Of a stretch of DNA of 64,000 bases, positions 43,361 through 46,227 are shown in pieces. Position 1 is the first letter of the stretch; every line of letters begins with the position of its first letter. A program made the position numbers and the translations under genes. Below the pieces are notes generated by a model, which was given only the letters and a program-made list of their open reading frames with translations, had not been told where the DNA came from and searched no databases. This DNA is from Acidiluteibacter ferrifornacis (GTDB lineage Bacteria; Bacteroidota; Bacteroidia; Flavobacteriales_E; Vicingaceae), in assembly GCF_009909615.1 (NCBI RefSeq), contig NZ_WWNE01000006.1:310001-374000 (forward strand), in the 5' to 3' direction.

Positions 43361-43395
43361 AAAAAGAGAGCGTCACAAAAAATTGTGACGCTCTC
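43359..43395 (-). terminator. Terminator of the 43419 T9SS gene
   Basis: Perfect 13 bp stem GAGAGCGTCACAA (43366-43378) / 43383-43395 with a 4 nt loop. On the minus strand it is followed by a run of seven T (43359-43365); on the plus strand there is no T run, so it probably serves the minus-strand gene only. Confidence 0.85.
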
Positions 43396-43418
43396 CAATA
43401 AGACGCTTTATTACCAAT

Positions 43419-44618
43419 TTACTTCACAACAAAAGATTTAGAAGCAACTCCTTTATCAGAAACGATCTGTAAAAAATAAACTCCTTTTGGATATCCGTTT
43501 AAGTCTATTTGGCTTTTAAAGCCATTGATTACTTGTAATTCTTTACCCATTGTATTCACTACTTTTAATTGACTCACTTTATATTTTGATTGGTATTTCC
43601 AATCAATTTTAAGGAAATCATTGGTTGGGTTGGGGTAAATTTTAATTTCACCCAAGTTAACCTCATTCTTTTCGTTAAGACCTACCAAACCGCCTAAGTT
43701 GGTAGATTTGAAGATTACACCATTGTCACCAAACACAAATAACATCCTATTCGAATACATATAAACGCCTATAAATTTAGAATTAAAGCTCAATGTATCT
43801 TTAGTATAACTCATTCCTCCATTTATTGATTTACTTACAATGCCATTGGATCCATAATTAATAACCCCAAACATTTTTTGACTATTTATAAAAACTGGCC
43901 TAGTCAAGGAATTAATATTTCTGCTATAAAAATTTAGCCCTTTGTCGTAAGAAATATAATATGAGGAAGGAAAGCCTGAACTATATACAACAATCGTATC
44001 ACCGCCTTGATAATATCCTCCAGCACCATTTAGAGTTATAGGTGGATGAGTTATAGTATCCCAGCTTAAACCTTCATCCAAAGTGATATACACTTTGTCA
44101 AAACCAACGCCAATTACCACGCTATCATACACATTAAAAGCCTGAAATTCTGACTGTAAAATTGTTAATCTCCCATCCTTATACTCCAATGTTTTGCCAT
44201 CTCCTTGAATCCAAACTTTATCTCCAAAAGAAATCAAACCCAAATAACTCAACAAACTTTCTGTGGTTTGAATTATCCTATTTCCTTTGGTTGCAATTTG
44301 AAACAGCTGAAGCGCGTAAATCCTATTCCAAGAAGCACTTCCAGTATCTATGCGAGTAACAAATAGGCTGTCTTTATAAATTGCCAAACCTGAAAAAGCC
44401 CATAGATTGGTATCCTGGTAATACAACGTCCAATTTTCTCCAGCATCTGTAGATTTTAAAATTTTGTTTTCAGCAGTTGCATAACCAATCAAGCTGTCCT
44501 GAAAAATAATTGAACTAACCTGATCTTGAACTCCTGAATTAACTTGATGCCAATTGGGTTGGGCGCTTATTCCTGAAAAAGTAAAAATAGAGATTATCAT
44601 TAATGTTATTGTTTTCAT
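43419..44618 (-). CDS. T9SS sorting-domain protein with BNR/YCF48-like repeats
   Basis: 399 residues. A signal peptide (MKTITLMIISIFTFSGISAQ) is followed by repeats of the BNR/YCF48 type (NWHQVNSGVQDQVSSIIF, ILKSTDAGENWTLYYQDT, SYTKDTLSFNSKF) that usually form a beta propeller, and a type A C-terminal sorting domain (about 325-399) containing IKIYPNPTNDFLKI and ending in KGVASKSFVV. The protein is exported by T9SS. Function unknown. The start codon abuts ten copies of a 7 bp repeat in the 5' untranslated region, and a terminator follows the stop. Confidence 0.85.
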   Translation of the reverse strand: MKTITLMIISIFTFSGISAQPNWHQVNSGVQDQVSSIIFQDSLIGYATAENKILKSTDAGENWTLYYQDTNLWAFSGLAIYKDSLFVTRIDTGSASWNRIYALQLFQIATKGNRIIQTTESLLSYLGLISFGDKVWIQGDGKTLEYKDGRLTILQSEFQAFNVYDSVVIGVGFDKVYITLDEGLSWDTITHPPITLNGAGGYYQGGDTIVVYSSGFPSSYYISYDKGLNFYSRNINSLTRPVFINSQKMFGVINYGSNGIVSKSINGGMSYTKDTLSFNSKFIGVYMYSNRMLFVFGDNGVIFKSTNLGGLVGLNEKNEVNLGEIKIYPNPTNDFLKIDWKYQSKYKVSQLKVVNTMGKELQVINGFKSQIDLNGYPKGVYFLQIVSDKGVASKSFVVK

Positions 44619-44688
44619 AGTTTTTAGTTTTTAGTTTTTAGTTTTTAGTTTTTAGTTTTTAGTTTTTAGTTTTTAGTTTTTAGTTTTT
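44619..44688 (-). repeat. Ten tandem copies of AAAAACT directly upstream of a start codon
   Basis: 70 bp of the 7 bp unit AGTTTTT (plus strand) or AAAAACT (minus strand), ten exact copies, ending at the base next to the ATG of the 43419 gene. Between it and the next element nothing else is repeated. Tandem arrays of short units like this change length by slipped-strand mispairing. Confidence 0.9.
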
Positions 44689-44879
44689 AAAATAAGTTAT
44701 ATCACGACGCTTACTAACTAACAAGCAGACAATTAAAAACGAAATTTACAGAAAAAAAAATACCAACCTAATTTGTAAAAAATAAATTGGTGCACAATCT
44801 AAAGACACATCAATCAAGCGATTCGTTGTTTACTTGAAGCTTTAGCTTTAAAATAGTTATTTCCAATCTTCTTTGTCCA
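44689..44879. other. Intergenic stretch between heptamer array and terminator, nothing clear
   Basis: 191 bp of AT-rich sequence. It should hold the promoter of the 43419 gene, but no unambiguous -7 box was found: the best on the minus strand is TAAATTTC (one mismatch), about 125 bp upstream of the ATG. A 21-codon coding-looking stretch (minus strand, about 44814-44879) is not long enough to call. Confidence 0.5.
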
Positions 44880-44917
44880 TAAAAAAGAGCCCTTATTGAA
44901 AACTCAACAGGGCTCTA
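44880..44917 (-). terminator. Terminator of the 44941 T9SS gene
   Basis: Stem AGAGCCCT (44886-44893) / AGGGCTCT (44909-44916) with a further TTGA/TCAA pair inside, followed on the minus strand by six T. Confidence 0.8.
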
Positions 44918-44940
44918 CACTCTAACTAATTAAACTAAAT

Positions 44941-46227
44941 TTAGTGATTCACCACTACCTTCTCACTTTTTTGCTGCCCATTTGAGGTAACCGTTAAAAT
45001 GTATGTTCCATTCTCTAGCTGATGAATAGGAACCTTAATTTCATTAGCGTTTAAAGTCGATTGATTTTCAAAAACCACTTTTCCCGATAAATCGACAATT
45101 CGAATTTGATTAATGCGATTACCTTTTGTTGAAATGGTAATTTGATCTGAAGTTGGGTTGGGGTATATTTTAAAATTCGCAAAAGAAGAATGTTCGGCCA
45201 GCCCTACCCTTGTTTGATAATTATAATTATACCTTAAATCATCTGATTTAATTAACCAACCACTTGCATCGATAGATTCCTCTATTACTGACTGTAAAGT
45301 TCCATTTGGATTGTAATTAAATGAAAACCTAACTTGAGGGTAGTATTTCTGTTGAGATACATTGTAATTCGAACTAACGACTTCACTGAGTCCATTTGAG
45401 TTATATTTAAAAACTTTTCGCTTCGAAATTATTCCTGCAGGACTTTCAAATATAGTAGAATCTACTTGATTTGCTGAATTATAATAAGTAGTCAAACGCT
45501 CTAAATCTTCCCACATAGAAACTGACCACCTCTGCACAAGCTCTGACTTAGAATTATTAACGGTATCATAAGTGTAAATGAATTTTTGATAATTCATCCC
45601 CTGAGGGTTAGACCCAATTAGTAATTTACTAAACTTCTCCATCAATCGAGAATTTTCATATTTGTAGGTGATAATGGAATTCTGATCCCACGAAGAATTA
45701 CCTCTCATTAGAATCAAAGCAGTATCAACTTGATTACCAAAAAATTTTCGATTAAGTTTATTAAGTGCCACCCAGGAAGTATCTCCCCATGTGTAGTATA
45801 TATCTTCCACTACATTTCCATTTAAATCGTAGCTGTATTCCCACATCGATTCATTCTCTATGTTTCCAGAATCTAATAACTGTCTTGCCCTTTTCTTTAT
45901 TTGTCCAAGCACATTAAGCTCCTGAGTATAAACTACACTAGTAAAATATCGGCTATTTGCAGCATCCCAAGAGTAGGTTGTTTGATTATCATAACTATTG
46001 AAATAACTTCCATCATAAAGTATTGGTGCACGATACCACTGTGAAGTAAATATATTTAATAACCTTTCATCATCCTGATTCGTACTCCATAGATAACTCA
46101 CCGAGTCTTGTTTGACATATTGAGTACCATCATACTTTTCGACAGTATAACTTTTAATTTGATCTTGAGCTGTTGCTGTAAGGATTGTAAAGCTTCCAGC
46201 TAGAATGGTAGTGAGTAGTTTTTTCAT
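44941..46227 (-). CDS. T9SS sorting-domain protein with YD-like repeats
   Basis: 428 residues. Signal peptide MKKLLTTILAGSFTILTATAQ, then irregular repeats of the form 'YxYdxxGn...' (WEYSYDLNGNVVEDIYY, FKYNSNGLSEVVSSNY, FSFNYNPNGTLQSVIEES) that resemble RHS/YD-type beta-rich repeats, and a C-terminal type A sorting domain (about 352-428) with FKIYPNPTSDQITI and GTYILTVTSNGQQKSEKVVV. Surface-exported by T9SS; role unknown. Same strand as the 43419 gene but separated by its own terminator. Confidence 0.85.
   Translation of the reverse strand: MKKLLTTILAGSFTILTATAQDQIKSYTVEKYDGTQYVKQDSVSYLWSTNQDDERLLNIFTSQWYRAPILYDGSYFNSYDNQTTYSWDAANSRYFTSVVYTQELNVLGQIKKRARQLLDSGNIENESMWEYSYDLNGNVVEDIYYTWGDTSWVALNKLNRKFFGNQVDTALILMRGNSSWDQNSIITYKYENSRLMEKFSKLLIGSNPQGMNYQKFIYTYDTVNNSKSELVQRWSVSMWEDLERLTTYYNSANQVDSTIFESPAGIISKRKVFKYNSNGLSEVVSSNYNVSQQKYYPQVRFSFNYNPNGTLQSVIEESIDASGWLIKSDDLRYNYNYQTRVGLAEHSSFANFKIYPNPTSDQITISTKGNRINQIRIVDLSGKVVFENQSTLNANEIKVPIHQLENGTYILTVTSNGQQKSEKVVVNH

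Follow-up and report, generated by a model that had tools for sequence, protein, structure and literature searches.

A lone (AAAAACT)10 array abuts the start codon of a T9SS cargo gene in Acidiluteibacter ferrifornacis and may form a copy-number-tolerant translation leader

A single heptanucleotide microsatellite, (AAAAACT)10, directly precedes the start codon of a gene encoding a T9SS cargo protein in Acidiluteibacter ferrifornacis. The reading that we favour, and to which we give about an even chance, is a recent expansion of this lone array within the leader of a T9SS cargo gene specific to this lineage, where it would act as a strong translation leader that tolerates changes in copy number. 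All positions given here are those of the window, i.e., the whole stretch of 64,000 nucleotides that was analysed (contig NZ_WWNE01000006.1, positions 310,001 to 374,000).

On the minus strand, positions 44688-44619 read exactly (AAAAACT)10 and the ATG (44618-44616) comes directly next; when partial units are included, the period-7 repeat extends over 44618-44689 (72 nt), with 10.3 copies, a 100% match and no indels in TRF. The original prediction of ten mismatch-free heptamers that run up to the base preceding the ATG is thus borne out. The perfect period-7 run of 72 nt compares with a longest run of 17 nt in 40 Markov shuffles of the window, which excludes a chance origin of the array. It was also correctly predicted to lie outside the reading frame, as it is upstream of the ORF and TAA is present in all three frames; in-frame switching is excluded for the same reasons. 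With phase-variable SSRs, the array shares short, perfect tandem units set in the coding or regulatory DNA of a gene; with the dispersed heptamer repeats of the TAACTGA or GGGAATC kind, it shares a period of 7 and a location outside the coding sequence. Its placement is polar, the 3' end of the G-poor strand being set against the edge of the coding sequence, with a gap of 0 to the ATG. It is a heptanucleotide repeat in a 5' leader, a kind already known. Because it is perfect, the array is young and potentially slippage-prone, and its length is probably variable. Units of 7 nt are out of phase with the DNA helix, which speaks against A-tract bending.

The gene behind the array (43419-44618, minus strand) encodes a 399-aa T9SS type A cargo protein with a signal-peptide-like N-terminus. 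The cargo identity that had been proposed is confirmed by the type A sorting domain of the product (PF18962, 8e-13; TIGR04183, 2.5e-11) and by the presence of SprA in the genome (TIGR04189, 2637 bits), so that the array has a surface or secreted target, as is usual for phase-variable SSRs, without being strictly defining. The product also shows a weak BNR/Asp-box (sortilin/Ycf48-like) similarity, its PF02012 match (1.9e-4) being below the cut-off. The nearest homolog found, at locus L010 of a genome of the same genus (G001), is 42-43% identical and can be aligned from the first residue, over the hydrophobic N-terminus, through to the C-terminal sorting domain; both proteins start with MKT, a hydrophobic stretch and Q.NW.QVN. 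Since the alignment begins at residue one, ATG 44618-44616 is the correct start.

A second T9SS type A cargo gene (44941-46227, minus strand; PF18962, 2.8e-16), without array, is located upstream and is followed by a terminator-like hairpin and U-run (44886-44916, minus strand), the fold of 44879-44925 having an energy of -18 kcal/mol (z = -4.8). Another hairpin, of the intrinsic terminator type, is found behind the first cargo gene (43365-43396, minus strand). As a strong terminator-like hairpin separates the upstream gene from the array, the latter probably belongs to the leader of the gene's own transcript, and 43419-44618 is likely a separate transcript. In the leader/promoter region that separates the array from the upstream terminator (44690-44885, minus strand), the Bacteroidetes -33/-7 consensus is not matched well, the best site reaching 7/9 where shuffles usually reach 8, and a sigma-70 scan gives chance-level matches only. 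With no promoter recognised, expression of the gene may be weak, or transcription may begin within the array or below it. An effect of copy number on promoter spacing, which had been put forward, is unlikely given that the array adjoins the ATG; no promoter is identified, however. The array itself was considered as a -7 element and rejected, its sense strand being without TTTG. The opposite strand contains the repeated TAGTTTTT, which is near to a -7 element and has a TTG 20 nt away (8/9), and there is no diverging gene on that side.

The array is a singleton. Whole-genome pattern searches reveal neither a second AAAAACT array nor another series of four ACT at intervals of 7 nt. In the 464 kb sampled (the window and 400 kb besides; 13% of the genome), it is the sole tandem repeat with a TRF score above 60, and the longest homopolymer is 10. 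The genome does not use many SSR loci, unlike organisms with many contingency loci. Dispersed heptamer repeats of the TAACTGA or GGGAATC kind are present in many copies over the genome, whereas here there is one locus; the array is therefore not filed as a member of a dispersed family, though its geometry matches. The comparison with the same genus shows that the array is lineage-specific and absent from the sister species. The leader of the L010 homolog, AAAAAAATACTGAACTATG, is A-rich and without array, and this homolog sits elsewhere on its contig, not between spoT and fur. These two genes are neighbours in G001, with 564 nt between them and no cargo gene, whereas two T9SS cargo genes are present here (43419-46227), which indicates that both cargo genes are lineage-specific at this place.

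Shine-Dalgarno initiation is rarely used by Bacteroidota, so that a leader made of one A-rich heptamer constitutes a natural test of A-rich, unstructured sequence driving translation, in which a copy-number series could separate the effects of length, sequence and structure. Initiation in F. johnsoniae is favoured by adenines at -3, -6, -12 and -13 and by little structure between -20 and +20 (PMC6847099). The sequence AAAAACTAAAAACT|ATG has an A at -3, -6, -12 and -13, i.e., at all four positions, as do 22/241 leaders of this genome. As the phase of the units relative to the ATG is fixed, the last 14 bases before it are unchanged for any copy number of at least 2. The opening cost of the -20 to +13 region is 1.0 kcal/mol for the array gene, the minimum among 346 genes, for which the median is 6.7. 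In a folding model of copy number, based on four assumed 5' ends and taking an arbitrary construct as its 0-copy baseline, this cost is about 6.5, 3.4 and 1.9-2.7 at 0, 1 and 3 copies, respectively, and about 1.4-1.8, 1.2-1.4 and 1.1-1.3 at 7, 10 and 20 copies. Start accessibility is thus predicted by this model to be flat from about 7 copies up and lower at 0-3.

With constant ATG-proximal bases and a flat accessibility, adding or losing 1-3 units is not expected to switch translation via start-site access, and these two properties (the bases being fixed at n of at least 2, the accessibility being flat above ~7 copies) argue against the proposal that copy number acts through ribosome access. 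A collapse to 0-2 copies should matter in the model, while changes of 1-3 near ten should not. The modelling suggests that the array would be a steady, translation-friendly leader more than an on/off switch. The array would probably have grown by slippage out of an A-rich leader that is normal for Bacteroidota. The resulting mRNA, (AAAAACU)10-AUG, is predicted to be unstructured; it is G-free, has A at all known favourable positions and stops in all three frames, and would most likely constitute a strong and permissive translation leader, the effect of which saturates. The length would then probably drift with little tuning around ten copies, and expression would be clearly lower at about 0-2 copies. 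If copy number varies, the array could be a leader-length tuning locus for T9SS cargo.

AAAAACT arrays also occur elsewhere. Of the 46 genomes of the order, G055 is the only further one with such an array, of 7.3 copies, which abuts the TTG start of dnaG and runs into the contig end. At least 3.6 AAAAACT copies are found in 6/395 Bacteroidia genomes, including this one: the G317 array stops 7 nt short of rpmA; that of G355 is set against a stop codon, in antisense; those of G313 and G415 are intergenic and have no such contact with a coding edge. In viral contigs, 4.1 AAAAACT copies directly precede the ATG of an ERF-family recombinase gene (PF04404) on three contigs of one phage type (L304, L309 and L315), and further viral arrays precede a start by 12 and 18 nt or adjoin a stop. 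Since dnaG, rpmA and the phage ERF gene are all preceded by AAAAACT, surface proteins are not its typical neighbour, and the idea that they are the usual targets does not hold for these arrays. In G313 (L033, L038, L041, L043 and L045), several AAAAACT arrays, of up to 14.9 copies, are mixed with related heptads in spacers.

The array can be compared with several known systems. In Haemophilus influenzae, the (ATCTTTC)n array of hmw1A/hmw2A lies between promoter regions P2 and P1; the copy number of hmw1A varies among isolates, and more heptamers lead to less mRNA and protein (PMC8262952). In both systems, a surface-protein gene has 7-bp repeats in its 5' leader and not in the reading frame, but the hmw arrays are located between P2 and P1 and set expression inversely to copy number, whereas the present one abuts the ATG. 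TAACTGA direct repeats are found in Beggiatoaceae, Cyanobacteria and some Bacteroidetes (MacGregor 2015, PMC4679880). They are also ACT-core heptamers, which mostly end a few bases ahead of a start codon on the sense strand, usually without Shine-Dalgarno, but several of those genomes have them at many scattered loci, unlike the one locus, with another unit, described here. The G-rich heptamers GGGAATC of Xanthomonas and GGGGA(C/T)T of Nostoc also occur near ORFs (Rehm 2015, PMC4692102), their G-containing strand being the antisense one ahead of starts, as in our case, and the sense one behind stops; in contrast to these quadruplex-forming repeats, AAAAACT/AGTTTTT has one G per unit, so that no G-tracts are possible. 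Polar placement has already been published for the G-rich heptamers (PMC4692102) and in part for TAACTGA (PMC4679880). Finally, according to the passages of PMC4679880 that cite it, the (AGAT)n repeat of uspA2 in Moraxella catarrhalis is likewise an SSR in the untranslated leader of a surface protein, but a tetranucleotide one, for which tuning of expression was shown experimentally. A literature search on Bacteroidota heptamer arrays at starts yielded only the TAACTGA and G-rich heptamer reports; in a search on type IX secretion and phase variation, neither term was present in the title or abstract of any match (full texts aside).

A wider class of ACT-core heptamers is present in relatives. 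An ACT core at five successive units gives matches in 30/46 genomes of the order, with more than 100 in some of them. A control pattern, TCA, also matches there, partly on the same arrays, so that ACT is not the sole possible core. These repeats are imperfect, their units varying at 4/7 positions. Placement was examined for 115 intergenic arrays with both neighbours present (loci L084-L134 and L194-L273; G024, G042, G043, G044, G060, G061 and others), using simple longest-ORF gene calls, the bias of which is common to both orientations. In 68/115 arrays, a coding edge is found at most 12 nt from the 3' end of the ACT strand; for the 5' end, this is so in 8/115. When related loci are collapsed, these values become 60/104 and 7/104, as against 19 expected if the arrays slid freely in their spacers, and discordant cases split 54 to 1. 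Arrays with ACT on the sense strand of the gene meet a start codon at this edge, and those with antisense ACT a stop codon; 3' ends come within 12 nt in 37/49 stop-facing and 31/66 start-facing cases. As ACT heptads are mostly without G-tracts, quadruplex formation is unlikely as a general reason for this placement. Bacteroidota might, as we very tentatively suggest, harbour an AT-rich, quadruplex-free class of 7-bp repeats, the growth of which is polar and anchored at coding sequence edges by a replication or selection process shared with Xanthomonas, Nostoc and Beggiatoaceae; the array of the window could then be a newborn member, before spread or decay.

Other explanations have to be weighed against a copy-number-tolerant leader. 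The array could be a phase-variable contingency locus, in which frequent slippage would change the length of the 5' UTR and thereby grade mRNA or translation of a surface protein, as in hmw1A. This is rather unlikely: unit length and leader position are as in hmw1A (PMC8262952), ten perfect copies stand before a T9SS cargo gene and the array is young and lineage-specific, but the predicted effect on translation is flat near ten copies, no other SSR locus is present in the 464 kb of genome sampled, and AAAAACT is also found before dnaG and rpmA elsewhere. By analogy with hmw1A (PMC8262952), leader length can nevertheless act on mRNA stability or transcription without any change in start-site access. 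It is also unlikely that the array is a neutral microsatellite devoid of selected function, which would have arisen and persisted only because an ATG-adjacent spacer tolerates G-poor, A-rich repeats. A start region more open than that of any other of the 346 genes would hardly be without consequence for translation, even though the array is a singleton in this genome and the heptamer arrays of relatives occur at stops at least as often as at starts (37/49 vs. 31/66 within 12 nt), which indicates that start adjacency is not special.

An array of binding sites for an RNA- or DNA-binding regulator of ACU heptads, as proposed for TAACTGA in Beggiatoaceae, is very improbable. S1, Csp or Csr proteins have been proposed to bind TAACTGA before starts (MacGregor 2015, PMC4679880) and ACT heptads are common in related genomes, but a regulon needs several sites where this genome has one, and the units of relatives vary at 4/7 positions. 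Finally, the array is internal to a contig of 515,783 bases, has unique flanks and, with 72 nt, fits ordinary reads, which makes a wrong copy number or a collapsed repeat produced by assembly scarcely credible, even if the G055 array, by running into a contig end, indicates that such arrays trouble assemblers.

Some minor features of the heptamer arrays of relatives can be added. At several loci (L238, L259, L272, L216, L218 and L226), AGT-type heptads follow the stop codon and ACT-type heptads precede the next start, and spacers with AGT then ACT heptads resemble a long imperfect inverted repeat. The stretch located 5' of the arrays is AGT-rich, with 139 AGT and 51 ACT in 50 stop-side gaps. 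At L091, L127 and L111, an ACTTTCA array that differs in length between related genomes (5 or 6 ACT units) is found close to a start codon and is immediately preceded by an upstream ATG. The called ORF includes this array in G024 but not in G042 and G043, which makes it a candidate frame-switching locus.
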